In this document: piece after piece, positions 8,081 to 24,945 of the stretch | How the letters are laid out: each line of letters opens with the position of its first letter | Position numbering within the stretch: the first letter of the stretch is position 1 | Origin: a virus | IMG/VR virus record: IMGVR_UViG_3300017783_000064 | Location: 1-40,496 of that record | Reading direction: 5' to 3' (one strand) | Length of the DNA stretch: 40,496 bases | The notes under the pieces: generated by a model | Database searches by the model: none | The model's input: only the letters and a program-made list of their open reading frames with translations | Told to the model about the DNA's origin: nothing | Translations under genes and position numbers: made by a program

Positions 8081-11000
8081 ATGTCAGAAAAAAGAGTACA
8101 ACTTAACAATATTGTCAAGAGTCAACTTCCTTCTTATGTTAGAGATGAATTTCCACTAATAGAAGAATTTCTGAAGCAATATTATATTGCTCAGGAATAT
8201 CAAGGTGCTCCTGTTGATTTAATTCAAAATATTGACAAATATATCAAAACTGAAGAAACTACTTCTGCAATCGATTCAGTATTTCTTGGATCTGACATAG
8301 AATATAATGATGAAACCATAACTGTTAGTGGATCTCTCTCACCCCAAGGTACATTAGGATTTCCAGATTCATATGGACTCCTGCAAATTGGAACTGAGAT
8401 TATTACATATACAGGAAAAACTAATTTCTCTTTTACTGGATGTATTAGGGGTTTTAGTGGAATAACTTCTTTAAAAAGTAGATCTGACAAAGAAAGATTA
8501 GTATTTGAAACATCAAATTCAGATGATCATGAGTCTGGATCAACTATAACCAATTTAAGTTCTCTTTTCTTAAAAGAATTTTTAATAAAAACAAAATCAC
8601 AGATACTTCCAGGACTCGAAAATAAAAATCTCCATGAAAATTTAAGTGAAAAGTTATTTTTAAATCGTGCTAGAGACTTTTACCTTGCGAAAGGTACTGA
8701 TCGTGGATTTAAAATACTATTTAAAGCACTTTATAATGAAGATGTAGAAATTATAAAACCATCAGAACTATTAAGTACTCCATCAAATGCACAATGGTTA
8801 GTAACAAATGACATTGTAGTTGAGCCTATTGTAGGAAATCCAGAAAAACTGCAAGGTTCCACTCTTTTCCAAGATCCATATGGTAAAAAAATTAATAAAG
8901 CATATGGTCCAATTAGTTACGTAGAAAAAATAAGAGTTGGAGTAGGAGTAACCTACTACAAATTAGTATTTGATGCTGGTTATAATAGAGATATTAGTGT
9001 TGATGGGTCAATTTATGGCAACTTCCAAATTCAACCAAAAACAAAGGTAATAGGAAAAGTATCTATTGGAGCATCAGCAATTACAGTAGATTCTACTGTT
9101 GGTTTTGAGTCTAATGGAGAGTTATTTGTTGATTATGGTGATAATACTGTTGGAATTATTTCATATAAGTCAAAATCATTAAACCAATTCTTTGAATGTT
9201 CTAGTATATCAAAACAAATTGAAGATACTACATCAATTGGTATTAACACTTTTGCATATGGAACTGCATCTTTTGATGATGAAGATCTTATTGAGGTTAG
9301 GATTAACTCGGTATTAAGTAATCTAGATATAACGAAGAGTACAGGTCTTCAAGGTAAAAATTCTGTAGCTAAAATAAAGACATTTGGTGTACATGATAAT
9401 ACATTCAAGGCAAAGAGTTGGTTATATAACGTCTCACCCTCATATAAAATAAAAACTTTTAATTTACTTGATTCATCAGACAATACATATAATTTAAATT
9501 TCAATGTAAATCATTATTTCAATCTTGGTGATGGACTAGAGTTGTTTTTTAGTGACGGGCAAAAGAAATCTTCTATAGTAATTGGAATTCCTTCTGGCAA
9601 ATCAGTAACTATTCGTGGTCAGGGACCATTGAGTGAAGTTTTAGAATACACTGTAAGAAAGACAGTTTCAAAATTAAATTCAAATTCCTTTGTATCATCT
9701 TCAATTTATACAACAAATATCCAAAATCTTTATAGAAGTAGAGAAGACGTTAATAATTATTTGATTGCTTCACCATCATTACCAAGTTATAGATCACAAC
9801 CAATCATATCTACTAATAGGTCTATTAAATTTTCTGGAACATTTTCTGGAAATGAATTTAATATTTCAGTTTTAGATCATGGTTTTTATACTGGAGATGC
9901 TGTATATTATATTCCAGAAAAAACTATAACTGAAACTGAAGTAGAGAATGAGGTTATAGAGACAATAAACTCATCTTTATTTGATGAAGGACTTTATTTT
10001 GTAGAGAGAGTTTCTAAAAATATCGTAAAGTTTGCAAGTAGCAGATCAAATCTATTCAATTCAAAATATATTGAATTGGGGAATAAAACTACAGTTTCAA
10101 ATAATATAGTTTTACCATATAATTTAAGAAATAAGTCATTAGAATCTCAAAAACTTCTTAGAGAACTTTTACCACCCAAAAACGGAGGAACAACTTTCCC
10201 AACGAATCCAGGATTTACTGGAATTTTAGTTAATGGTGTAGAAATTTTAAATTATAAATCAAATGATTCTATAAACTATGGAAAACTTGAAAAAATAAAT
10301 GTAACAGCTCCCGGATCAAACTATGACATTATAAATCCACCAAATTTAATCATATCTGATACTATTGGGATAGGTGCAACAGGATATCCAGCTGTTTCTG
10401 GTTCACTACAGTCAATAAGAATAGTTAATTCTGGATTTGATTACAAAAAAACACCTCTAGTTAAAATTCAAGGGGGAAATGGTAATGGTGCTAGGGCATC
10501 TGTTACAATGAGGAGCATTACACATTCATCAGAATTTAATTCTTCATTAACAGTAAGTCTTGGATCTACCTCATCAACAATTGGGTTTTCTACCTATCAC
10601 AAGTTTAGGAACGGTGAAGAAGTAATTTACAAGACCGGAACACAAAAAGCTATAAGCGGACTTACTACAGACTCAATATATTATGTCTCTGTACAAGATT
10701 CAAATATAATAAAACTTCATGAAATTGAATCAGATGCGATTGTTGGAATTAATACAATAATATTAACTTCTTTTGGTGAAGGAAAGCATTCTCTTAGATC
10801 TACAAATAAAAAATCTATAGTAGAATCTATCAATGTTATTAATTCTGGATCTGGATATGAAAATAAGAAGAGAACAACTAGTTCTGTAGGAATTAATACT
10901 TCTTTAAATTTTGTCAATATAGAAAATCATGATTATAAATCTGGGGAGATTGTAAAATATACTTGCGAAGGAACACCTATTTTAGGATTAGCAGTAGATT

Positions 11001-14000
11001 CTGAATATTACGTAACAAAATTAGATAATAATAATTTCAAATTATCTGAAATTAACGTTGGTTCAATTTCAACTGAAAAAGATCTTTTTTATAAAGAAAA
11101 TGAATATGTATCATTTAAAAATGTTGGTAGTGGAAGTCACGTCTTCAATTATCAAGACATATCAGTTTCTTTAGTTGGAAGTGTTGGCATATCTTCTGTT
11201 GGCGAAGAGACCTTTGAATGTAAAATAGATCCTATTTTTAGAGGTGAAGTAACATCAGTTCATCTATCAAATAATGGTGTTGGTTATGGATCTTCAGAAG
11301 TTATTAATTTTGAGAGAGATCCTTTAGTAATACTAAGTTCCGGTTCTGAAGCACAAGTTCTTCCTGTAATTAATAATGGAGCAATAACTGAAGTTATCAT
11401 ACTGAATAGTGGTAAGAATTATACAAATGTTCCGGATTTATCAGTTATTGGGGAAGGTGTTGGAGCAGTTTTGACACCAATAATTGAGAATGGTGGATTG
11501 AAGACTGTCAATGTTCTTAGTGGAGGAATTGGATACGACCAAGGAACTTCCATTGAGATTAGTCCATCAGGAGAAGGTGTTAATCTAAAACCAGTAATTC
11601 AAAAGTGGAATATTAATTTATTTGAAAGAAACTTTAATAATTTTACTTCTGATGATGGATTTATTACCAATGGAACTAATGATAATTATGGATTGCAATA
11701 CTCTCACATATATGCTCCCAGAAAACTTAGAGAGATTTTGTTTTCAGTTGATCAGGGGGGAAATACTTTATATGGTAAAACTGACCTAAAGAAAATTAAT
11801 AGTATTGAATCAAATTCAATAGACCATTCACCAATTATTGGATGGGCATATGATGGAAATCCAATCTATGGACCATATGGATATTCTAAAAAATCTGGAG
11901 GATCTGTAGTATTATTAAAGTCTGGATATTATTTAAATATCGTAGAAGATAGACCACCTACCAGTATATTTCCAGAAGGATTCTTTATAGAAGATTATTT
12001 GTATAATAAACTTGAAGATGAAATAACTCTTGATGAGAATAATGGAAGATTTTGTACTACTCCAGAATTCCCTAATGGAACTTATGCATATTTTTCAACT
12101 ATTAGTAATATTTCAGACACTTCTGGACCATTTTCAAAATATAGAAGACCTATTTTTCCATATGTAATAGGTCAAAACTTTAAAAATATTCCAAATCAAT
12201 TCAATTTTAATGGAATATCAAATCAAGATTATATTGATTTGAATGATTCTCAGTGGTCAAGAATAATAGATCCATATAATCTAATAGAAGATACTATTTC
12301 TTATCAATATACAACAATACCAAATAATTTATCACAAACTATTAATGTTGAATCTGTTACTCCCGGAACTATTGATTCAATTGGAATTAGTAGTGGAGGA
12401 AAAAATTATAGAGTAGGTGATCAAGTAGATTTTGATAATGCTGATACTTCAGGAAGTGGAGCTTCTGCTGTAGTTTCTAAAGTAAAAGGTAAGGTAGTTA
12501 ATAGTATAAGTTTAGCATCAACTAGTATTACTGGAGTAGAAATTTATCCGAATGCAAAAAATCAATATGTATTAATTGCGAAAAATCCTCATAATTTACA
12601 GAATAATGATGTTATTAATGTTTTAGGAGTATCTACAACTTCATCTTATCTTGAAAAATCATATACTGCAGGGATTACGAGTGCTCGTCTAGTAATTGCA
12701 GGAATAAGTACTACTGGATATGGTATAAGTGCGCCATCAATTACTGGAATTGTAACATATTTTGGAGTAATTGGTGAGTTTAATGCAATACAAGAAAATG
12801 ATATTTTAAATGTACAACAAGAAAAAGTTAAAATTTTAAATATTGAACCAAAACTATCTAGAATTAGAGTTTTAAGAGAAGTTAGTGGTACAGTAGGATC
12901 TGCTCATAGTGCAACAACATTTATATATGAAGACCCCAGAAAAATAAAAATTAATGTCGATAAAACTTTATCTAATATTAGCATAAGAGGAAATAGAGAA
13001 TTATATTTCAATCCTGCAGAATCTGTCGCTTTAGGAACTTCTTTTGGTGTTGGGATAGGTACAACATTATCTTTCCAAACTCCAGGAATTGGTATAAGTG
13101 AAATCTTTGCTCCAACAAAGTCAATTTATTTTCCAGAACATAATTTAATTACAGGAGATGTTTTAACATATTCTTCAAATGGTGGTAGTGGTATTATAGT
13201 ATCTGAAGAAGGTAATCTCGGTGTAGGATACACACTTACAAATGATCAAAATGTATTTGCATTAAAAATAAATTCAAATTTCATTGGAATTTCTACGGTT
13301 AGGGTTGGTTTAGATACAACTGGTTCCTTTGTAGGAATTGCAGACACTTATAAAAACTCTAGAAGTCTATATTTTACTGGAATTGGTACTGGTTCCATTC
13401 ATAGTTTTAAAACTAATTATAAAGTTTTAACTGCAGAAGTCACTAGAACCAAAGTAACAGTATCTACAGCAACAACTCATGCTTTAAGTCCTCAACATTC
13501 TGTAGATATTAAAGTAAATCCTTCAAATACAATCACATATGTTGTCAAATATAATGATCATCATAGAAAAATAATTATAAATCCAAAAACCTTTGCATCG
13601 GGAGATGTTAATATTTTAGACAATACAATTAATGTAGATAGTCATGGATTTGTTACAGGCGATAAAGTAATCCATACTTCACCTAGTCCTTCCGGAGGTC
13701 TTGAGCACAATACGGTATATTATATTATTAGAGTTGATAATAATAGAATTAAATTTGCAAGTTCTAGATACAATTCAATACAAATCATACCAACAGAAGT
13801 TTATATTACAAGTGCATCTTTAGGAGTTATAAGTCCAATAAATCCAAGTATACATGTATATAAGAATTCAAATGTTGTTTTTGATTTAACAGATCCTTCA
13901 TTATCATATATAAATTTCTCTACAAGATATTCTGCATTTTCTTTTGATTTATATACAGATACAAACTTTACAAAATTTTGGGAAAAACCAAAAGATAGTA

Positions 14001-17000
14001 AATCTTTCTATGTTATAAAGACTGGAAAAATTGGAGTTACAAATGATGCAAAAGTCACAGTAAATATTGATGACCAAGTTCCTGATACTTTATTTTATAA
14101 ACTTACTCCAATATATGAGAGTAATATTCCCAATGTAAAAGAAGAAATAGTATCGGATTTTGAGTCTTATAATGCATCTCAGATTATGGTTAAGAGTAGT
14201 GTATATAACGGTAGGTATCCAATTTCTATTGGATCATCTACAGAGTTTACATATACCTTACCAAATATACCAGAAAGTAATTCTTACAATAACATAGACT
14301 CAGTTCTTAGTTATGAAACTGATTGTAACCACACTAGAGGAGTAATATCTCAATTATCAATTACAAATAAAGGGAAAAATTATTATTCTATTCCAGGCAT
14401 TACTAGCGTAAGATCAAAGACTGGTAGTGGAGCTTTATTATATGCAAATAGTTCTAATATTGGAAAAATTAAAACCACAAAAATAAATGATATTGGATAT
14501 GATTTTCCGACAGATCAAACATTGAGACCTAGTGTAAATTTACCACAAATTATAAAGATTAAATCTTTAGCTTCTATAGAATCTATTGGAGTTAATTCTG
14601 TCGGAAGAGGTTATGTAACTTCTCCAGATTTGTTGGTTTTTGATGCAGAAACCGATCAATTAGTTGAAGATCTAGATTTAAAATATGAACTTGGAAAGAC
14701 TGATGTTCAAGTATTAAAAAATACATATGGAATTAGTAATTTAACCCCAACAATTATTCCAGTACATAATAGTAATGGTGTCGGAATAAGTACGATATCA
14801 TACAACAAATCAAATAAAAATGCGACAGTAACTTTGGGTCAACAGTTTAGTGATACTAATAATTTCCCATTCAAATTAAATGATAGAGTTTTGATTGAAA
14901 ATGTTAGTGTCGGTGTTGGTTCTACTGCAAGAGGTTATAATTCGGATAAGTATGGATTTAAATTATTTACTGTGGTATCAACGGATGAAAATATTGGTGG
15001 AGCTGGAGCAACAGTTACTTTTAGTATGTCAGATTACTTTAGTGATGATATTTCTACTCCAGGTAATTTTGATATTACCAATAACTCTGCTGCAAGAATA
15101 ATTCCCGAAAAATACTTTCCAAAATTCGATATTACTTTAAGTACAAATAATTTTGGAGAAGGTGAAATTGTAAAATCAAATTCTGCTACTGGAATTGTTG
15201 AGAGTTGGGATTTTAAAAATGGAACTTTACGAATATCTTCAGCAGATAATTTTAAAAATGGTGAAATTATAAAAGGTCTTTCTACAAAAACTCAAGGCAT
15301 TGCATCTGAAGTATCTATTGGAGAAGCATACCTGAACTTGGATGCAAAATCAAAAGTTATACGAGGATGGCAAGTAAATTCTGGATTCTTAAATGATGAT
15401 TTACAAAGAATTCAAGACAGTGATTATTATCAAAACTTCTCATATTCATTGAAATCAAAAATTCCATATGAAGTTTGGAATGAATCAGTTTCGTCACTCA
15501 ATCATACTGTAGGATTTAAAAAATTCTCAGATTATCAATTAGAGTCATCTGTAGACAATAGATCTTCCATGATCGTTGGTATTTCTACAGAATTAACTTC
15601 ATTTGATATTGTGAGTGATCTTGTTGGATATGGCAATCTTAATTGTGTGTATGATTATGATTTAGTAAAAGAAAATACTTTTAAAATTTCAAATGAAACT
15701 CTCACTACTGAGATAGTATTTGCAAATAAAGTTTTAACAGATTTTGAGGAGTCTGTTGGAAATAGAGTTTTAAATATCGATGATTTGAGTGGATTATTTA
15801 ATAGTAATCCAAGAGCTACTCCCTTCGAAGTTGTATCTACTTTCGATGTTAATAGAGTAAGAGCATCAAAGTTCATCACTTTTGTTAAAGATAGAAGATA
15901 TACTACACAAAGACAACTATTGCTTGTAGATCTAATACATGATGGTGCAATAGCATATACTAACGAGTATGGAAGATTAGAAACAACTTACGATCAAGGA
16001 TCATTTGACTTTAGTCTTTTTGGCAATACTGGGCAATTAACTTTCTATCCAACAAATTTTAGATTCAATGATTATGATGTTTCTACATTATCATATCGTT
16101 TAGATGATGAATTGATTGGTTATGGTACTACAACTATTGGACCAAGTGTTATTCATAATACTACTGTTCCACTTTCTTCTGGAATAACTACTACAATTGT
16201 TGCTATTGGGAAAACATATAGTTCTGCAAAATTATTAATTGAGATTACTCCAGATACAAACAACACTTCAAAGTATGAGTTTAATCAACTAAACATTGCA
16301 CATAATGGATCTGATATTTCTTTGTTGGAATTTGGTAAGTTGACAACAGTTATTGGAGATTATTCTGTATCTGGTCTTGGAACATATCATGCATATTATG
16401 ATTCAAATTTCCTTAAAGTCGATTTTACTCCAGATTTAAATGTTGGAGTAGGAACCATTGGGGTTGTAAATACTGTTCTTGTTGGATTAGCAAATTCAAC
16501 AAGTATTGGTGTTGGCACCCATACTATGAAGCACGCAAAATTAGAATCCAAAACTACTCAAATTTCTGCATCTGGTTCACCAACACAGACCGTAATTGCA
16601 GAATATCAAACAGATACTTTAAATGGATATGATGCTGCATATTGCTTAGTTCAAGCATGCAATATGTCTACAAATGAATATCAATTATCTGAATTTGTTG
16701 TTATTGATGACTATGTTGAAGGAATTTCAAATCCACAAACTTATGATACTGAGTTTGGTGTTATAGAAACTTTATCTGGAGTAGGAACTATAGGATCTAG
16801 AATCTTAACAAATTCGGTGGGAATAGCAGCTACTGTACAAGTTTTATTTACTCCAATTTCTGGAGTCAATGTAAATATCAATACTTTAATCAATACAATT
16901 CGCGGACAAGATGATTCTCAGTCAAATATTACATTTAACGATGGAACTGTTAAAACTGGAATAGGTATTTACGAAGGTACTGAGAGAGATATTAAGCAAT

Positions 17001-20000
17001 CTTTCCCACTATATCATAGAGAAACTCCAATTTTTGAAAGAGAATTTTTAGGTAATGAAACTTCTATTGTCGATACTGATAGTGATGTAATCATTATACC
17101 AAATCATTTCTTTGTTACAGGAGAACCTATCAAGTATTATTATGGAGAAAAGGCTATAGGTATTGCAAATACTAATTTCCCAGGAGTTGGTATAACAAAT
17201 AGACTACCTCAAGATTTATTTGTGGTAAAAGTTGATAATAATAAGATTAGAGTTTCATCTACAGCACAAAAAGCATTAAAATCCGCTCCAGATTTTGTAA
17301 ATTTAACCAGTGTTGGTATTGGAACTTCTCATAGATTTGTTGCAGAAAATCCAAATTCAAAGTGTATTATATCTCTTGATAATAATATTCAGTCACCAAT
17401 TGTAGCATCATCTTCTACTACAAGATTATCAGATTCTATTTTCACTACAGATGATATTTTAAAATTTGATAGTACAGGTGACTTTTTAGGTGGAGATCTA
17501 GTTAAACTTGGTAATGAAATAATGAAAATTGAATCTATTGGTATTGGTTCCACAAACACTGTAAGAGTCCGTAGGGCACGACTTGGAACATTTGTTGCTG
17601 GGTATTCTACAGGTACTTCTATTACCAAAGTTGATGGCAATTTCAACATTATTAACAACACAATAAATTTTGTAGAACCACCATATGGAAATACTCCTTT
17701 AGGCACTACAACAAATGCACCTGATGAGGTTGATTGGGTTGGAATATCTACAGGATCTAGTTTCCATGGAAGAGTGTTTTTACGCTCTGCAGCTGTTAAT
17801 ACATCAGAAACTCCTTACAGTAAAAATTATATTTTTGATGATATTTCTCAAGATTTTGATACTCAAAACAATAAGTTTATCTTAAAATCTGAAGGTTCTA
17901 ATGTTAGTGGAATTAGTGCTGAAAATGCAGTATTTTTGATTAATGATATTTTCCAAGGTCCAGGAGAAAATAGGGATTATAAATTGGAAGAAAGTGCTGG
18001 CATCACAACAGCAATAATTAACGGAGTTCCTCAAAGTGTAACTCATGATGTTGGTATTTCAAGTTTTCCAAGGGGAGGAATAATACTCTCAGTTGCAGTA
18101 GATTCTAAAGGAAATTATTACCAACCTCTAGTTGCTGCTGGTGGAACTGCCGTTGTTTCTGCTGCAGGAACAATTCAATCTATTGGAATTGGAAATAGTG
18201 GATCTGGTTATAGAGTGGGAATTCAAACAGTTAATGTTTCAATTAGAGAAAAAAGTATTTCTTCTAATAATATTGTAGCAATTGGAACTGCCCAAATAAC
18301 TGATGGTCATATTACTGGAGTTGCAGTTACTAGTGGACAAGTATTTTATGCTCCAAGAGACATTTCAAATTTCTTCTATGACAACTTAACAGGAATTTCT
18401 ACTGCAACCACATCTTCTGCACACAACTTGTCCATTGGAGATGAGATCACATTCTCTGGAATTGCAATGACTTGCGATTATGCTCCACAAGTAAATGTTG
18501 TAAATGCAATTTATGACAACGTTAGTGGTATTGTAACAATTACGACTGATTCTGATCATAAATTGCAATCTTCTGGACAAAGAAGTACAGCATTATTAAC
18601 TGGTATTGGATTTACTTGTGATTTAGATTTGGGAATCTCAACTCATTTCTATCCTAGGTCTACAGATCCAGCATATTGTGGCGCAAGAGTTATTAGTGTT
18701 GCTAGTACAACTGAATTCTCTGCTGGTGTTGGAAGTCATGTCACACCACATTTCTATAATAGTGGTGGAACAGTTCAAGCAGCTGAGAGATTTCCGAGAC
18801 TTACTGATCCATCAAAAGCAAATGCCAGAACAATTATTTCCAGAATAATAAGTGATACTGAATTTGAAGTAAATGTTGGTCTTTCTACAAGAGTTCATTT
18901 CTATTCTAGATGTGGCAATGTACAGAAATCATATGATGTTGAATTTGATACTCCATTATCATATACAAATATTCCTCTCGAATATACTTCATCAAGTACA
19001 GGTCCTGGTTTGGGAACAGAAGCAAAGGTTGATATTGTTGTTGGTCAAGGATCTAGTGTTATTGATTTCAACTTTAGTTCTTATGGATACGGGTTTAAAC
19101 CAGGAGAATCTTTATCAATTCCTTTTGGTGGACCTACTGGAATTCCAACTACTGTAGGATACGAACCATTAAGACTTATTATTGATGAAACTTTTACAGA
19201 TAAGTTTACTGGATGGTCTATCGGAACACTACAAGTTTTGGACAGTATTGATCAATATATTGATGGGTCAAGATCTTCTTTCCCATTATCATTCCAAGCA
19301 AATCAAATTTCTATAGTTTCTGCTAGAGGATCTTTAATCAATGTTGAAGATGTTCTAATAGTATTTGTAAACAATATATTACAAGTTCCTGGAAAGGGTT
19401 ATACATTTGAAGGTGGTAGTATTATAACATTTACCGAAGCAATAAAAATCGGAGACGATGTTAAAATTATTTTCTATAAAGGAAGTGGTGACATTGATGT
19501 AATTCCTAGAGAAATTATTGAGACTATTAAAATAGGAGATAATTTGCAAATTGGATACGATGCATCTATTGGACAACCTTTCCACTTCCAGGAAGATGAT
19601 AGAAGTGTTATGCAAATAACTTCTGTAGATTCTGTAGATACTAATCCATATTTTGGTCCCGGAAAAATCGAGGATGCAAATACACTACGTCCAGTTACTT
19701 GGTGCAGACAAACTGAAGATAAAATTATAAATGAAAAAGAAATTGGAAAAGATAGAGAATTATATGAGCCAATCATCAAACCAACTGCATCATTAATAAG
19801 ATCTGTTGGTGTAGGCGCTAGTATTCTTTACGTCGATAATGCAAGACCATTCTTTAATGGTAAAAATGAGAATGACATATCTCTTGATTTTCAGAATAGT
19901 GTTGTTCTCATTGGAAGTGGTGAAGTAACATCGGCAGCTTCAACTGCAGTAATCTCTTCTTCTGGTCAAATAACCTCTATAGTCATTTCTGATGGAGGAT

Positions 20001-20848
20001 CTGGATATACAAACTCTCCTAAAGTAAGTATTGGTGGTACAGTTGGACTTGGTACACCTGCAACTGCAACTGCATCAATAACTGCAGGAATTGTTACAAA
20101 TATAACAGTCACAAATGGAGGATCTGAATATTCTCAGACTAATCCACCACCAATTCTAATTGCACCACCAACACTCAAAAGAGAAGTCAATGAAGTCTTC
20201 TCTTATAATGGAGACTCTGGTGTAATTGTTGGATATGGAGCTTCTACATTTGATCCAGGAGGAAACAAAATTATATTAGATCTCCATATTCCTTTCACTT
20301 CAGAATTGAGAAATCCTGTTTTAGTTGGATCTGCAGTTACTCTTACTTCATTAACTACAGGTGATTATTTCTTGGTTCAAAATTCTATTAATAGATTGGA
20401 AGACAATGAAAAATTTGAAACTTTTGCAGCAAATGACTTTAATTTTGTAAATCAAGTTGGAGTTGCAACAGATAATATTGATACAATATATCAGGTAGAG
20501 TCTACTCAATTAGTAGAGACTTCAATTTCTGGTATTACTACAACTGTTAAGAGAATATTCACCAGAATTACTGGTATTGGATCTACTGCATATGATTCAA
20601 CATTAATCACAAAAGATTCTACATCATTTACTTATGATAGTGTGGGAAATATCTATACTGCAGGTATTTCAACTAATCCAGAGCACTATTTTGGGGATTT
20701 CTGTTGGGGTAAAATAACCTTAGTTGGAAGATCTGCTCTAAACGAATTTGATTCTTACTCGGATCAAATAAACTTTAAAGTTGGTATTTCAACTTCGGAT
20801 ATAGTTCAGAGAAATCTTTCTTTGAAATATAAGAACTACATAGTCTAA
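8081..20848 (+). CDS. Giant virion structural protein, 4255 aa
   Basis: One uninterrupted frame of 12.8 kb. The start shows the cyanophage virion-protein head VQLNNIVKSQLPSYVRDEFP followed by IEEFLKQYYIAQEYQGAP. Around 105-125 is an IGTEIITYTG...GCIRG unit. GSGY-type repeats (pattern I-x-x-I-x-I-x-N-x-GSGY) occur near 740-800, 910, 1050-1175, 1430-1470, 2085-2195, 3370 and 3960-4025. About 1190-1350 resembles the YHYH family (GWAYDGNPIYGPYGY). Units of the type H-x-F-x-TGD...YYVxxVDxNxIKxA recur, and about 3430-3615 is a Cys-containing module in repeated form. The protein is beta-rich and lacks membrane segments. It sits between gp6 and gp8, the place of gene 7 in T4 (1032 aa), so it may supply the gp7 wedge function plus a long peripheral arm; that is inference. 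Confidence 0.88.
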   Translation: MSEKRVQLNNIVKSQLPSYVRDEFPLIEEFLKQYYIAQEYQGAPVDLIQNIDKYIKTEETTSAIDSVFLGSDIEYNDETITVSGSLSPQGTLGFPDSYGLLQIGTEIITYTGKTNFSFTGCIRGFSGITSLKSRSDKERLVFETSNSDDHESGSTITNLSSLFLKEFLIKTKSQILPGLENKNLHENLSEKLFLNRARDFYLAKGTDRGFKILFKALYNEDVEIIKPSELLSTPSNAQWLVTNDIVVEPIVGNPEKLQGSTLFQDPYGKKINKAYGPISYVEKIRVGVGVTYYKLVFDAGYNRDISVDGSIYGNFQIQPKTKVIGKVSIGASAITVDSTVGFESNGELFVDYGDNTVGIISYKSKSLNQFFECSSISKQIEDTTSIGINTFAYGTASFDDEDLIEVRINSVLSNLDITKSTGLQGKNSVAKIKTFGVHDNTFKAKSWLYNVSPSYKIKTFNLLDSSDNTYNLNFNVNHYFNLGDGLELFFSDGQKKSSIVIGIPSGKSVTIRGQGPLSEVLEYTVRKTVSKLNSNSFVSSSIYTTNIQNLYRSREDVNNYLIASPSLPSYRSQPIISTNRSIKFSGTFSGNEFNISVLDHGFYTGDAVYYIPEKTITETEVENEVIETINSSLFDEGLYFVERVSKNIVKFASSRSNLFNSKYIELGNKTTVSNNIVLPYNLRNKSLESQKLLRELLPPKNGGTTFPTNPGFTGILVNGVEILNYKSNDSINYGKLEKINVTAPGSNYDIINPPNLIISDTIGIGATGYPAVSGSLQSIRIVNSGFDYKKTPLVKIQGGNGNGARASVTMRSITHSSEFNSSLTVSLGSTSSTIGFSTYHKFRNGEEVIYKTGTQKAISGLTTDSIYYVSVQDSNIIKLHEIESDAIVGINTIILTSFGEGKHSLRSTNKKSIVESINVINSGSGYENKKRTTSSVGINTSLNFVNIENHDYKSGEIVKYTCEGTPILGLAVDSEYYVTKLDNNNFKLSEINVGSISTEKDLFYKENEYVSFKNVGSGSHVFNYQDISVSLVGSVGISSVGEETFECKIDPIFRGEVTSVHLSNNGVGYGSSEVINFERDPLVILSSGSEAQVLPVINNGAITEVIILNSGKNYTNVPDLSVIGEGVGAVLTPIIENGGLKTVNVLSGGIGYDQGTSIEISPSGEGVNLKPVIQKWNINLFERNFNNFTSDDGFITNGTNDNYGLQYSHIYAPRKLREILFSVDQGGNTLYGKTDLKKINSIESNSIDHSPIIGWAYDGNPIYGPYGYSKKSGGSVVLLKSGYYLNIVEDRPPTSIFPEGFFIEDYLYNKLEDEITLDENNGRFCTTPEFPNGTYAYFSTISNISDTSGPFSKYRRPIFPYVIGQNFKNIPNQFNFNGISNQDYIDLNDSQWSRIIDPYNLIEDTISYQYTTIPNNLSQTINVESVTPGTIDSIGISSGGKNYRVGDQVDFDNADTSGSGASAVVSKVKGKVVNSISLASTSITGVEIYPNAKNQYVLIAKNPHNLQNNDVINVLGVSTTSSYLEKSYTAGITSARLVIAGISTTGYGISAPSITGIVTYFGVIGEFNAIQENDILNVQQEKVKILNIEPKLSRIRVLREVSGTVGSAHSATTFIYEDPRKIKINVDKTLSNISIRGNRELYFNPAESVALGTSFGVGIGTTLSFQTPGIGISEIFAPTKSIYFPEHNLITGDVLTYSSNGGSGIIVSEEGNLGVGYTLTNDQNVFALKINSNFIGISTVRVGLDTTGSFVGIADTYKNSRSLYFTGIGTGSIHSFKTNYKVLTAEVTRTKVTVSTATTHALSPQHSVDIKVNPSNTITYVVKYNDHHRKIIINPKTFASGDVNILDNTINVDSHGFVTGDKVIHTSPSPSGGLEHNTVYYIIRVDNNRIKFASSRYNSIQIIPTEVYITSASLGVISPINPSIHVYKNSNVVFDLTDPSLSYINFSTRYSAFSFDLYTDTNFTKFWEKPKDSKSFYVIKTGKIGVTNDAKVTVNIDDQVPDTLFYKLTPIYESNIPNVKEEIVSDFESYNASQIMVKSSVYNGRYPISIGSSTEFTYTLPNIPESNSYNNIDSVLSYETDCNHTRGVISQLSITNKGKNYYSIPGITSVRSKTGSGALLYANSSNIGKIKTTKINDIGYDFPTDQTLRPSVNLPQIIKIKSLASIESIGVNSVGRGYVTSPDLLVFDAETDQLVEDLDLKYELGKTDVQVLKNTYGISNLTPTIIPVHNSNGVGISTISYNKSNKNATVTLGQQFSDTNNFPFKLNDRVLIENVSVGVGSTARGYNSDKYGFKLFTVVSTDENIGGAGATVTFSMSDYFSDDISTPGNFDITNNSAARIIPEKYFPKFDITLSTNNFGEGEIVKSNSATGIVESWDFKNGTLRISSADNFKNGEIIKGLSTKTQGIASEVSIGEAYLNLDAKSKVIRGWQVNSGFLNDDLQRIQDSDYYQNFSYSLKSKIPYEVWNESVSSLNHTVGFKKFSDYQLESSVDNRSSMIVGISTELTSFDIVSDLVGYGNLNCVYDYDLVKENTFKISNETLTTEIVFANKVLTDFEESVGNRVLNIDDLSGLFNSNPRATPFEVVSTFDVNRVRASKFITFVKDRRYTTQRQLLLVDLIHDGAIAYTNEYGRLETTYDQGSFDFSLFGNTGQLTFYPTNFRFNDYDVSTLSYRLDDELIGYGTTTIGPSVIHNTTVPLSSGITTTIVAIGKTYSSAKLLIEITPDTNNTSKYEFNQLNIAHNGSDISLLEFGKLTTVIGDYSVSGLGTYHAYYDSNFLKVDFTPDLNVGVGTIGVVNTVLVGLANSTSIGVGTHTMKHAKLESKTTQISASGSPTQTVIAEYQTDTLNGYDAAYCLVQACNMSTNEYQLSEFVVIDDYVEGISNPQTYDTEFGVIETLSGVGTIGSRILTNSVGIAATVQVLFTPISGVNVNINTLINTIRGQDDSQSNITFNDGTVKTGIGIYEGTERDIKQSFPLYHRETPIFEREFLGNETSIVDTDSDVIIIPNHFFVTGEPIKYYYGEKAIGIANTNFPGVGITNRLPQDLFVVKVDNNKIRVSSTAQKALKSAPDFVNLTSVGIGTSHRFVAENPNSKCIISLDNNIQSPIVASSSTTRLSDSIFTTDDILKFDSTGDFLGGDLVKLGNEIMKIESIGIGSTNTVRVRRARLGTFVAGYSTGTSITKVDGNFNIINNTINFVEPPYGNTPLGTTTNAPDEVDWVGISTGSSFHGRVFLRSAAVNTSETPYSKNYIFDDISQDFDTQNNKFILKSEGSNVSGISAENAVFLINDIFQGPGENRDYKLEESAGITTAIINGVPQSVTHDVGISSFPRGGIILSVAVDSKGNYYQPLVAAGGTAVVSAAGTIQSIGIGNSGSGYRVGIQTVNVSIREKSISSNNIVAIGTAQITDGHITGVAVTSGQVFYAPRDISNFFYDNLTGISTATTSSAHNLSIGDEITFSGIAMTCDYAPQVNVVNAIYDNVSGIVTITTDSDHKLQSSGQRSTALLTGIGFTCDLDLGISTHFYPRSTDPAYCGARVISVASTTEFSAGVGSHVTPHFYNSGGTVQAAERFPRLTDPSKANARTIISRIISDTEFEVNVGLSTRVHFYSRCGNVQKSYDVEFDTPLSYTNIPLEYTSSSTGPGLGTEAKVDIVVGQGSSVIDFNFSSYGYGFKPGESLSIPFGGPTGIPTTVGYEPLRLIIDETFTDKFTGWSIGTLQVLDSIDQYIDGSRSSFPLSFQANQISIVSARGSLINVEDVLIVFVNNILQVPGKGYTFEGGSIITFTEAIKIGDDVKIIFYKGSGDIDVIPREIIETIKIGDNLQIGYDASIGQPFHFQEDDRSVMQITSVDSVDTNPYFGPGKIEDANTLRPVTWCRQTEDKIINEKEIGKDRELYEPIIKPTASLIRSVGVGASILYVDNARPFFNGKNENDISLDFQNSVVLIGSGEVTSAASTAVISSSGQITSIVISDGGSGYTNSPKVSIGGTVGLGTPATATASITAGIVTNITVTNGGSEYSQTNPPPILIAPPTLKREVNEVFSYNGDSGVIVGYGASTFDPGGNKIILDLHIPFTSELRNPVLVGSAVTLTSLTTGDYFLVQNSINRLEDNEKFETFAANDFNFVNQVGVATDNIDTIYQVESTQLVETSISGITTTVKRIFTRITGIGSTAYDSTLITKDSTSFTYDSVGNIYTAGISTNPEHYFGDFCWGKITLVGRSALNEFDSYSDQINFKVGISTSDIVQRNLSLKYKNYIV

Positions 20849-20874
20849 ATATTTTTAAACCAAAAGGTCTATAA

Positions 20875-21813
20875 ATGGCGAGATTAGGCATAAACACCGG
20901 TATAGGTCCAAATGATGGAACAGGTGATTCTCTTAGGATTGCTGGTGGAAAAATTAATACTAATTTTGAAGAAATTTATGATTATTTTGGTGATGGATCA
21001 TCTTTATTAGTCACATCAAACGTTTGGCAAGATACTAACGTTGGTATTAACACTTTAGCAAAAGTTGGTATTGGAACAACTAATCCAACTAAAATTTTAG
21101 AGACACTTGGTGATGTTAAGTTTGTTGGAAATTTAAATGTAAGTGGATTAGTAACTGCAACAAATTTTACAGGTTCATTTTCTGGTAATGCAACGAGTGC
21201 AACCTATGCTAGTTCTGCAGGAATTTCTACAGTTGCAAATTATGCAATTTTAGCGGGAGTTTCTACATATGCAGTAAATTCTGGACTTGCAACAAATGCA
21301 ATAACTTCAGTAAATGTAATTGGAAGTGGTATAGGTTCATTCTACGAATTATATAGTTCCGGCATAGCAACATTATCAGCTAGTGGTGGTATTACGACTA
21401 CAGGTGGAGATCTTTATGTTGGTGGAGATCTATATGTAAAGGATGATATTACTTATGATGAAGTAAATGTAAGTAGAAATCTTAACGTTACGGGAATTTC
21501 AACTTTTAACATAGTATCAACTGGAGGATCTGTAACTACATCAGACAAATATTATGGTGACGGGAGCAGATTAACTGGAATATCTGGACTTGCTACTGCA
21601 TTGTCTCCAGATCCAACATCAGCTCTAAATGCGTTTTTTAAGACTCCAAGAGAGATTATTGTTAAATCTGGTGAGAATATTCTCGTAGCATCTGACAATA
21701 CTAGTGGAAATTTGGTATTTGCTAGAGAGAAAAATATTGTAGTTTCTACTGGAGCAACTATGACCGTGGGTGCAGGTACTACAATCTTATTAAATGTACT
21801 GAATATTTTTTAA
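20875..21813 (+). CDS. Tail-fibre-like virion protein, 312 aa
   Basis: The start MARLGINTGIGPNDGTGDSL and RIAGGKINTNFEEIYDYFGDG is one I recall from many T4-like cyanophage structural proteins; it probably forms the attachment domain. Residues 60-200 hold short fibre-type repeats (TATNFTGSFSGNATSATYASSAGIS), which build triple-stranded beta shafts in other fibres. A DKYYGDGSRLTGISGL unit follows, then a small C-terminal domain ending in a beta strand pair. It starts 26 nt after the giant protein and shares its repeat style. A trimeric fibre or connector attached to the baseplate is the likely role. Receptor contact is unproven. Confidence 0.8.
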   Translation: MARLGINTGIGPNDGTGDSLRIAGGKINTNFEEIYDYFGDGSSLLVTSNVWQDTNVGINTLAKVGIGTTNPTKILETLGDVKFVGNLNVSGLVTATNFTGSFSGNATSATYASSAGISTVANYAILAGVSTYAVNSGLATNAITSVNVIGSGIGSFYELYSSGIATLSASGGITTTGGDLYVGGDLYVKDDITYDEVNVSRNLNVTGISTFNIVSTGGSVTTSDKYYGDGSRLTGISGLATALSPDPTSALNAFFKTPREIIVKSGENILVASDNTSGNLVFAREKNIVVSTGATMTVGAGTTILLNVLNIF

Positions 21814-21819
21814 TAAATA
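21812..21819 (+). promoter_or_regulatory. Late promoter for cupredoxin-fibre gene
   Basis: AATAAATA, 27 nt before the start at 21847 and overlapping the last base pairs of the upstream stop codon. Same NATAAATA form as the other late promoters. Confidence 0.65.
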
Positions 21820-21846
21820 AAAGAAGCAAAAAAGATTAAAATCAAG

Positions 21847-23343
21847 ATGTCTGAGATTAGAGTCAATAGTATTAAGAATGAGGCAGGTTCAGGTGCTGTT
21901 GAACTGACTCATGGCGCTACCATCCCCTCTGGAGCATCTCTCAGTGGCGGTGGCGGATTAAGTGTTACTGGTGTTGTTACTGCTACATCATTCGTTGGTA
22001 ATTTAACTGGAAATGTAACTGGTAATGCTGACACAGCAGATTATCTCAATGATGCAGCAAATATCGTTACGGGAACGATTAGTGATGGCGTACTACCGGA
22101 TTTAATTTCTTCAAATATCCATGTCATTGCTGGAGTTTCCACTTTTGCTACTGCAAAAGCAAACTCTTTTGTTGGGGCATTAACTGGAGATGTAACTGGA
22201 ACTGCATCGACAGCAACAACTGCAGATAGTCTGCAAGGTACACCAAACATTACAGTTGGTGTTGTAACAGCATCTTCTCTTGATATTAATGGAGATGTTG
22301 ATATTAGTGGCAGCGTTTCTATCGGAGGAACACTTACTTATGAAGATGTTAAAAATGTAGACTCAGTTGGTATTGTTACTGCCAATGTTGGAGTTGATGT
22401 AATTGCAGGAGGCATTAATGTAAATGCTGGTGGCATTAATATAGTTACTGGTATTATAACTGCACCCACCTTTAGTGGCAATTTTGTTGGTGTTACTACT
22501 GGTCCTGTAACTGGCAATGTAACTGGTGATGTTACTGGTAATCTAACAGGAACAGCAACTACTGCTATATTAGCAAATACTGCAACTTATGCGGTCAATG
22601 CAGGAGTTTCAACTACTGCTACTTATACTTCAGAATGGGATATTACTGCAAATGCTGGAAATACTTATTATTATTATAGTGGACCAGGATTTGTTGGAGA
22701 TCGACCAAATCCTGATGTTTTTGTTATTAGGGGGCAGCAATATCTTTTCAGAAATCAAATGGGAGGGCATCCATTTGAAATTAGAACAACTGCAGGTGTT
22801 GCATTAACCGCTGCTCAAGGTGTTACTGGAAATAATCCAGTAAGTAATGGTGAAATGTTCTGGAATGTTTATATGAATGCTTTTGATGAGTATCAGTACA
22901 TATGTACAGCTCATCCAGCAATGAATGGAAAAATCTATGTCGTCAACGCAGGTGTTGGAAATAGTACTAGTGTTAATACTTCAGGAATTATAACTGCTAC
23001 TGGTGGTTTTGTTGGAAACCTCACAGGTAATATTGTTGGAGATATTGTTGGAGAGGTAAATGCTCCTTCATTTGACACTAATGTCTCTGGTGTAGTTGTT
23101 ACTGGTATTGCTACTGCATCATCATTTGTTGGGGCATTAACTGGCAATGTAACTGGTAATGTTGAAGGTAATGCAAGTGGTTTGGCGGATGGAAGTTATA
23201 ATTTAAACACTTCCGGAATTGTAACTGCTACTGGTGGATTTATCGGATCAGCATCAACTACTCCTGTAGTAATAACTCACTCTGCTGGAGTTCTGACATT
23301 TACAGTTGCTGGTATTGGATCTACTTCTCTTGCCTTAGCATAA
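21847..23343 (+). CDS. Tail-fibre-like protein with embedded cupredoxin-like domain
   Basis: The 498-aa product starts MSEIRVNSIKNEAGSGAVEL, a head frequent in marine phage fibres. Residues 40-255 and 375-480 are fibre repeats such as TATSFVGNLTGNVTGNADTA. Between them, about 262-370, lies a separate domain with FVIRGQQYLFRN, GGHPFEI and YICTAHPAMNGKIYV. His308, Cys353, His356 and Met359 fit the four type 1 copper ligands. The C-x2-H-x2-M loop has the same spacing as amicyanin and is shorter than the C-x2-H-x4-M of plastocyanin. The domain is about 108 residues, the usual cupredoxin length. The fibre role is inferred from the repeats. Copper binding, redox activity or use of the fold only for receptor contact remain open. 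Confidence 0.8.
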   Translation: MSEIRVNSIKNEAGSGAVELTHGATIPSGASLSGGGGLSVTGVVTATSFVGNLTGNVTGNADTADYLNDAANIVTGTISDGVLPDLISSNIHVIAGVSTFATAKANSFVGALTGDVTGTASTATTADSLQGTPNITVGVVTASSLDINGDVDISGSVSIGGTLTYEDVKNVDSVGIVTANVGVDVIAGGINVNAGGINIVTGIITAPTFSGNFVGVTTGPVTGNVTGDVTGNLTGTATTAILANTATYAVNAGVSTTATYTSEWDITANAGNTYYYYSGPGFVGDRPNPDVFVIRGQQYLFRNQMGGHPFEIRTTAGVALTAAQGVTGNNPVSNGEMFWNVYMNAFDEYQYICTAHPAMNGKIYVVNAGVGNSTSVNTSGIITATGGFVGNLTGNIVGDIVGEVNAPSFDTNVSGVVVTGIATASSFVGALTGNVTGNVEGNASGLADGSYNLNTSGIVTATGGFIGSASTTPVVITHSAGVLTFTVAGIGSTSLALA

Positions 23344-23364
23344 TTATAAAGGTCTATAAACCTC

Positions 23365-23372
23365 AATAAATA
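23365..23372 (+). promoter_or_regulatory. Late promoter for gp8 unit
   Basis: AATAAATA, 19 nt before the gp8 start, in a 48-nt intergenic gap. Confidence 0.65.
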
Positions 23373-23391
23373 AAGAAAAAACCTGTATCCA

Positions 23392-24945
23392 ATGGCTGCA
23401 ATTATAACTGACCAAATTAGAATATTAAATGCAAGGAATTTTGTGGATGGAGTCAGATCTTCTGACAATTCATATTATTCCTTCATTGGATTACCCAATG
23501 CAATAAATTTTCAAAATGATTGGGATGCAAACCCACCATCACCCAAAGATAATTTTGATGAGGAAAATAATTATTGGGATACTATAATTGGACTGAAAAA
23601 AATCACTCCTTCTGATGTGAGACAAGTTGTAGTAAAAAGATCTTGGTCTTCTGGAACAACCTATGACATGTATCGTCATGATTATAGTAGATCAAATACT
23701 GCAAAGATTTCAGGTTCTACAAATTTATATTCTGCAGCTTACTACGTACTAAACAGTGATTTCAGAGTCTATACTTGTTTGCAGAATGGTACAGATCCAG
23801 ATAATCCAAATGGAAGACCGTCACTTGATGAACCAACATTTACCGATTTGGAACCAAGATCTGCAGGTAGTAGTGGGGATGGATATGTTTGGAAATATCT
23901 GTATACTATAAGACCAAGTGATATTATAAAATTTGAGTCTACTGATTTTATGCCAGTTCCTCATGATTGGGAAACCAGTACAGATAATGCTTCAATAAGA
24001 ATTAATTCAGTTGATGGTTCTATAAAAATTGTAACTATCACAAATAGAGGAATTGCTATTGGACCTGATGGTGGAACAGAATATACAAGAGTTCCGATCA
24101 AAGGTGATGGAGAAGGAGCAGAATGTACGATTGTAACTAATAATGATAGGAAAGTTCAATCAATAACAGTTTCAAATCAAGGTTCTGGATATACTTATGG
24201 TACTGTAGATTTAGAAGCAGGTGGAGTTCCTACTGGAACAACAAGACCATCATTTAATGTCATTATTACGCCACAAGGGGGGCATGGCGCAGATATTTAC
24301 AGAGAGTTGGGAGCATATAATGTCTTGACATATTCTAGAATTGAAAATGATATATCAAATCCAGATTTTATCACAGGAAATCAGATTGCTAGGATTGGAA
24401 TTGTTGAAAATCCTAAAAGATCTGATTCTTCGTTATTAAATCTAGATAAAGCAAGTGCAGTCGCTGCCATCAGGTTAACTGGAGCTGGATATAGTTCTGC
24501 AACGTTTGATGCAGATTCTTATGTATCTCAAACAGTATCAGCAGGATCAACAGCAATTGCTAGAGTTATTAGTTACAATCAAACTACAGGAGTTTTAAAG
24601 TATTGGCAGGATAGAACAACCGCAGGATTTACTACTGCAGGAATTGGAGTGACTAATCCAACATATGGATTAAATTTAACCGATTTTACAAGTTCACCTG
24701 GAACTGGTGGGAACATTACTATAGTTCCCACATCAGGAGCAAATTTAGCAATTGATACTTCGTTTACAGGTCTCTCTACTGTAATAAATAATCGTACATA
24801 TTACCTTGGTCAGGAATTTTCTAATGGTTTAGCAGATCCTGAAGTGAAAAAATATACTGGAAATATTATCTATGTTGATAATAGACCATCTATTACTAGG
24901 TCAATAAACCAAAAAGAAGATATTAAAGTCATTTTGCAGTTCTAA
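23392..24945 (+). CDS. gp8: Baseplate wedge protein gp8
   Basis: The N-terminal half has the T4-like gp8 form as found in cyanophages: MAAIITDQIRILNARNFVDG, then SYYSFIGLPNAINFQNDWDA, WDTIIGLKKITPSDV, VVVKRSWSSGTTYDMYRHDY and DGYVWKYLYTIRPSD. gp8 forms dimers linking gp7, gp10 and gp6 in the wedge. The 517 residues exceed T4 gp8 (334). The extra length includes a GSGY unit at about 205-290 (QSITVSNQGSGYTYGTVDL) and further beta modules to 440. The C terminus (SRSINQKEDIKVILQF) looks like the normal family end. It is followed 6 nt later by the DUF4815-type gene. Confidence 0.88.
   Translation: MAAIITDQIRILNARNFVDGVRSSDNSYYSFIGLPNAINFQNDWDANPPSPKDNFDEENNYWDTIIGLKKITPSDVRQVVVKRSWSSGTTYDMYRHDYSRSNTAKISGSTNLYSAAYYVLNSDFRVYTCLQNGTDPDNPNGRPSLDEPTFTDLEPRSAGSSGDGYVWKYLYTIRPSDIIKFESTDFMPVPHDWETSTDNASIRINSVDGSIKIVTITNRGIAIGPDGGTEYTRVPIKGDGEGAECTIVTNNDRKVQSITVSNQGSGYTYGTVDLEAGGVPTGTTRPSFNVIITPQGGHGADIYRELGAYNVLTYSRIENDISNPDFITGNQIARIGIVENPKRSDSSLLNLDKASAVAAIRLTGAGYSSATFDADSYVSQTVSAGSTAIARVISYNQTTGVLKYWQDRTTAGFTTAGIGVTNPTYGLNLTDFTSSPGTGGNITIVPTSGANLAIDTSFTGLSTVINNRTYYLGQEFSNGLADPEVKKYTGNIIYVDNRPSITRSINQKEDIKVILQF

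Follow-up and report, generated by a model that had tools for sequence, protein, structure and literature searches.

The analysed stretch of DNA, here called the window, comprises positions 1-40,496 of the IMG/VR virus record IMGVR_UViG_3300017783_000064, a record of 40,496 bases that is possibly a fragment. It codes for gp6, a 4255-aa gp7-type baseplate wedge protein (8081-20845), a gp9/10-like protein, gp8, a 2503-aa virion protein, neck proteins and a sheath stabiliser. Since gp8 is 75% identical to its counterparts in Bellamy and S-SM2, the source virus is, judged from its genes, a T4-like marine phage whose host is very probably a cyanobacterium. The gp7-type protein contains a YHYH domain (PF14240, E 4.5e-22) at residues 1142-1341. 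The slot between gp7 and gp8 (20849-23391) is variable. In the window, it is occupied by two genes, one for the gp9/10-like protein, which lacks the domain described below, and one for the tail-fibre-like protein P0001, which carries it (Table 1). The same two-gene arrangement was found on the contig L025, including an orthologue of the 498-aa fibre and with the gene order kept, whereas neither gene is present at this place in S-SM2 and Bellamy, and RB11-B has one gene in the slot.

Table 1 Features of the gp7-gp8 region of the window and of the domain-bearing fibre protein.
Feature	Position	Strand	Basis
gp9/gp10-like protein, without cupredoxin domain	20875..21813	+	N-terminus of T4_gp9_10_N type (weak, under cut-off)
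Tail-fibre-like protein P0001, 498 aa, domain-bearing	21847..23343	+	ORF translation, profile matches, L025 orthologue
N-terminal fibre part	21847..22614	+	Repeats of GNLTGNVTGN type; matches to PHROG profiles of tail fibres and the gp9 connector
Cupredoxin domain (predicted), P0001 residues 257-369	22615..22953	+	Homology, AlphaFold2, Foldseek, hhalign
His308, first ligand residue (CAT in GGHPF)	22768..22770	+	Translation, alignment
Cys353, ligand residue (TGT in CTAHPAM)	22903..22905	+	Translation, alignment; sole cysteine of the 498-aa protein
His356, ligand residue (CAT in CTAHPAM)	22912..22914	+	Translation, alignment
Met359, axial ligand residue (ATG in CTAHPAM)	22921..22923	+	Translation, alignment
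C-terminal fibre repeats and protein end	22954..23343	+	Translation
gp8, baseplate wedge, syntenic marker	23392..24945	+	75% identity to gp8 of Synechococcus phages Bellamy and S-SM2

P0001 shows no export signal. Towards both termini, it consists of fibre repeats rich in Gly, Thr and Asn; repeats of the GNLTGNVTGN type flank a segment (residues 257-369) that differs from them in composition and contains the motifs GGHPF and CTAHPAM. The initial annotation had described this segment as an amicyanin-type copper site embedded in a phage fibre protein. The four ligand residues are encoded exactly where that annotation placed them, and the domain does lie between fibre repeats, although its limits by homology are 22615-22953 and not 22630-22956 as proposed. 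P0001 was matched by PHROG profiles of tail fibres and of the gp9-type baseplate connector, the match to PHROG 677 starting only at profile position 158 (E 1.6e-21). The counterpart of the gp9-type N-terminus is the neighbouring gene, not P0001, and P0001 does not unite such an N-terminus with a C-terminal cupredoxin domain in a single protein, as the PHROG 677 connector does. A second cupredoxin copy was not found in gp7, the 2503-aa protein, gp6, P0002 or gp14 of the window.

AlphaFold2, applied to the window domain with 66 relatives, yielded a model of nine strands with a pLDDT of 95.5 and a pTM of 0.87. In the numbering of the domain, His52 is placed just ahead of strand 54-58, Cys97 at the end of strand 92-97, and His100 and Met103 in the following loop, after which strand 104-110 closes the sheet; this is the cupredoxin order. 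A Foldseek search of this model against the PDB gave 49 matches at E <= 0.001, 48 of which were copper proteins with cupredoxin domains, the sole exception being a prothrombinase complex from snake venom. Among these matches were a domain of three-domain nitrite reductase, rusticyanin, amicyanin, plastocyanin, small laccases and a purple cupredoxin, with moderate TMq values of 0.44-0.57 for the known cupredoxins. In an hhalign comparison of the family with cyanophage PetE (E 2e-5, probability 77%), the four ligands were aligned His-His, Cys-Cys, His-His and Met-Met. The Pfam profile PF00127 (Copper-bind) scored the window domain at 17.8 bits, under the curated cut-off of 21.2, and was matched at E <= 0.01 by 10 of the 66 relatives. 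The full-length model of syn9 gp9 had a mean pLDDT of 62 overall and about 92 in the cupredoxin domain, and was left out of the fold search because it was confident in that domain only. According to the model, the window domain belongs to the cupredoxin fold superfamily of Greek-key beta-sandwiches, as the initial annotation had expected, and by alignment the canonical type 1 ligand set of His, Cys, His and Met is present in it.

The likeness to amicyanin is narrower than proposed. Both share the length of the C-x2-H-x2-M loop, and amicyanins gave the best pairwise sequence matches in the PDB (E 0.007), but the first His is followed by Asn in amicyanin and by Pro (HPF) in the window domain, as in 192 of 195 relatives. 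The HMMER profile alignment to amicyanin paired Pro with Pro and was thereby displaced by two residues at the first His. The two proteins also differ in setting, since amicyanin is a secreted carrier for methylamine dehydrogenase and the window domain is part of a 498-aa fibre among tail genes. The best fold matches included the N-terminal cupredoxin domain of three-domain nitrite reductase (2dv6, E 2e-5) and rusticyanin (E 5e-5), an enzyme domain and an electron carrier with other loop lengths. Rusticyanin has the motif GHSFDI at the place of GHPFEI in the phages.

The conservation of the ligands was assessed in sets of increasing breadth. All four residues (HCHM) were found in 23 of 24 phage relatives, the window included, which were spread over the ranking and chosen blind to the ligand residues and are therefore unbiased in that respect. 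In the wider set of 195 domains, in part biased by search seeds of which some included ligand residues, all four were present in 191, with identities to the window domain of mostly 25-55%; together with the hhalign result, these counts corroborate the proposed type 1 set. With the many phage relatives and the lone cysteine of P0001, they also show that the motif is no coincidence. The four exceptions are a domain that is cut short and three copies with FAVM (S-B43), KSDP (L029) and NNNV (L056) at the ligand positions, which retain the invariant fold residues and have lost at least three ligands. In L029 (ORF residues 114-333) and L056 (559-774), the domains form tandem pairs in which the ligandless first copy directly precedes an intact second one. 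A profile iterated more widely collected 352 domains, of which 267 had HCHM and about 80 had none or one of the ligand letters, the latter mostly from one clade in a large protein downstream of gp9. When the ligand columns were left out of the tree, 7 changes were needed to explain the ligandless state, one of them an artefact of a contig end (L183), and the starred branches force 4. Within the family proper, the ligand residues thus appear to be kept or lost together as a set. This all-or-none rule is less certain beyond it, given a very divergent group, comprising S-PM2 and a second S-B43 protein, that seems to retain His, Cys and perhaps the second His and whose loop is longer, with no clear Met. 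The members of this group, S-PM2 50763-50876 (L201) and S-B43 160074-160178 (L208), carry the motifs AHIFSL or DHVFSL and YYYC and are possibly a third subfamily with an altered site. Separately, the protein that follows gp9 in syn9 and S-SM1 (L206, L207) contains two more cupredoxin-like domains at about residues 365-465 and 555-680, one with the ligands GHPMRF...YYHCAHHRYM and the other with none.

The ligand is the sole cysteine in all 29 non-redundant gp9-type proteins (about 406 aa) and accounts for 191 of the 192 cysteines in the 195 domains, the distribution that a metal site would predict. A disulphide role for Cys353 is unlikely, and an intrachain disulphide is excluded because the ligand is the only cysteine of the chain. 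These observations bear on the best surviving alternative, a metal-free beta-sandwich that serves adhesion or assembly only and in which the ligands are ancestral leftovers. Ligandless relatives do occur in the same proteins, and their persistence in the fibres of S-B43, L029 and L056 and in the large protein that follows gp9 speaks against a copper role, since the fold can evidently serve without metal. Leftover residues would, however, hardly be retained in 191 of 195 domains despite heavy sequence change, nor the only gp9 cysteine in 29 of 29, and losses that take three or four ligands together are not expected of them either, so that we regard a metal-free scaffold as rather unlikely.

A tblastn search with the domain retrieved 305 phage records up to an E value of 1e-3, the best at 2e-23, and in 300 cases the match covered 80% or more of the query. 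The 305 records are named after Synechococcus (243), 'Cyanophage' (38), Prochlorococcus (19) and Marine (4), plus one actinobacterial freshwater phage. Scanning IMG/VR with the single window-domain protein gave no relative and a 24-member alignment was too diverse as query, but alignments of subfamilies succeeded and added 160 loci. The same insert is thus found in the fibre proteins of other marine phages, where the initial annotation had proposed to look for it, and it is not an odd, isolated insertion but widespread in gp9-type proteins of cyanophages. In most phage records, it resides in the T4-gp9-like 'baseplate wedge-tail fibre connector' of Kyanoviridae (PHROG 677, T4-GC 398), whose gene lies between a gp7-type gene and gp8. 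This connector shares with the window the domain, the HCHM set and the gene position; the domain is C-terminal in gp9, whereas in the window it is internal to a separate fibre gene beside a domainless gp9/10-like gene. The other records have it at internal or N-terminal positions in dozens of fibre architectures (IMG/VR), including those of the podovirus P-SCSP2 and of S-SKS1. The domains of S-SKS1 and the window share the border sequences ATYTSEW and KIYxVNAG, the ligand loop of S-SKS1 being longer, and Bellamy has two copies of the domain away from the gp7-gp8 slot. S-SM2 and SynMITS9220M01 gave no match to the domain, and S-PM2 gave a weak divergent match only, with no full-length domain; because some relatives are without it, the domain is not essential to all of these phages. 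Altogether, the sequences portray a large and mobile family with modular spread. The S-SM1 virion proteome comprises 41 proteins (PMC3037559). That gp9 is a virion protein we infer from its annotation and gene position.

A cellular origin of the domain was also considered and rejected: a scan of genome_contigs returned two MAG contigs only, both phage-like, and plasmids gave no match. These contigs (L218 and L219, assigned to Planctomycetota and Flavobacteriaceae) carry tail fibre genes, a transaldolase and a subtilisin-like protein, and are probably phage DNA mis-binned into bacterial genomes.

Comparison with the orthologues on L025 revealed that the cupredoxin domain, with the lowest identity (55%) and the highest dN (0.40, at a dS of 1.25), is the fastest-changing of the compared parts. 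The respective values were 70% (dN 0.24) for the rest of the fibre, 83% (0.10) for the gp9/10-like protein and 88% (0.07) for gp8. The dN/dS of the domain of about 0.3 indicates purifying selection, and the ligands were retained. Quick divergence under purifying selection with fixed ligands is the pattern that an exposed contact module would be predicted to leave.

We propose, with a probability of roughly 60%, that the domain is a virion cupredoxin, i.e. a copper-locked, exposed and fast-evolving module of the adhesion apparatus. The fold, the conservation of the ligands, their all-or-none loss, the modular spread and the divergence above that of gp8 were all computed here; copper binding is predicted from the ligand residues. 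In this proposal, a beta-sandwich module whose type 1 site is intact has been spliced into a fibre next to the baseplate wedge, where it would protrude from the host-attachment apparatus as an exposed knob and contact either a partner fibre or the surface of the host. Bound copper would join the strand of the first ligand to the C-terminal hairpin; because of this tie, a small domain without disulphides could be rigid and stable in seawater, and its surface would be free to change while copper holds the core. Since P0001 has no export signal, it would fold in the cytoplasm. Free copper is scarce in the host cytoplasm, and for both reasons the metal is probably loaded onto the folded protein, the simplest guess being at cell lysis or in seawater. 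Against the type 1 reading stand the Pro that follows the first His where Asn is usual, the PF00127 score below cut-off and the moderate TM-scores.

The copper could also do more than hold the domain together. The fibre or connector might exchange electrons at the host surface, or sense redox state, copper or light-driven chemistry, and thereby control adsorption or tail triggering. Abundant ocean viruses would then have a redox-active blue copper centre in their attachment machinery, acting as sensor or trigger at the surface of a photosynthetic cell. Electron-transfer cupredoxins have this full type 1 set with Met, the hosts are phototrophs, and light-dependent adsorption is mentioned for some cyanophages in a passage of PMC9229316 that cites Jia et al. 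2010. Nevertheless, we consider such a device unlikely, as no redox partner was seen and ligandless copies persist. The link to light is further weakened by S-PM2, which we take to be one of the phages with light-dependent adsorption and which lacks the full-length domain. In a milder form of this idea, the virions of many marine T4-like cyanophages may carry stoichiometric protein-bound copper, since the domain and its ligand residues are present in hundreds of cyanobacterial viruses.

Another ion might occupy the site instead. Type 1 sites readily bind Zn in vitro, and phage fibres and spikes such as T4 gp37 and P2 gpV use octahedral Fe with His-only ligands, so a structural site for Zn, Fe or Ni would resemble known phage parts in that metal ions stabilise adhesion structures. 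The Fe sites, however, lie in trimeric fibres, and the window has a globular domain in which His-Cys-His-Met on a cupredoxin fold, aligned with PetE, is the type 1 copper set; we therefore hold a different metal to be quite improbable. The least probable alternative by far, a phage or host petE captured as an auxiliary metabolic gene and fused to a fibre, can draw on the common fold and ligands, which align column by column, and on the presence of petE in cyanophages (PMC3037559), but was rejected since phages of this kind carry petE as a small ORF of its own, with a signal-like leader, a longer C-x2-H-x4-M loop, a role as electron carrier of the host photosystem and PF00127 scores of 67-74 bits compared to 15-20 for the virion domains. 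The suggested link to plastocyanin accordingly holds for the fold and not for the gene. The record of S-SCSM2R (PQ898602.1, 170926-171432, L016) annotates a virion-type domain as PetE, which could be cited for such a capture; this domain groups with the fibre domains and not with plastocyanin.

Cupredoxins as such are already well known, and no report of a virion cupredoxin in cyanophages was found in the open-access literature, subscription journals lying outside the search. Among the adhesion parts of phages, the only metals known to us are iron ions bound by His. If true, a type 1 copper site would add a new class to the metal centres of virions, and because many isolated cyanophages have the domain in their gp9-type protein, the virion cupredoxin is testable in laboratory phages such as syn9 and S-SM1. 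It would bear on the stability of cyanophage fibres and on host recognition, as well as on copper within the viral fraction of seawater and on unexplained effects of light and redox conditions on adsorption, and would explain proteins that are labelled only 'connector' or 'minor tail protein' or, wrongly, 'PetE'.

Two groups of more distant proteins were also noted. The A4 members, such as L044 and L105, gave weak matches under cut-off to PF25489, a plant At5g54830-like domain that is a possible distant eukaryotic relative. In BFVD, the giant-virus 'Beta-sandwich proteins' A0A481Z6J5, A0A481YVH3 and A0A481Z7Q7 (Pithovirus- and Marseillevirus-like) were matched with the same fold at E of about 1e-6.
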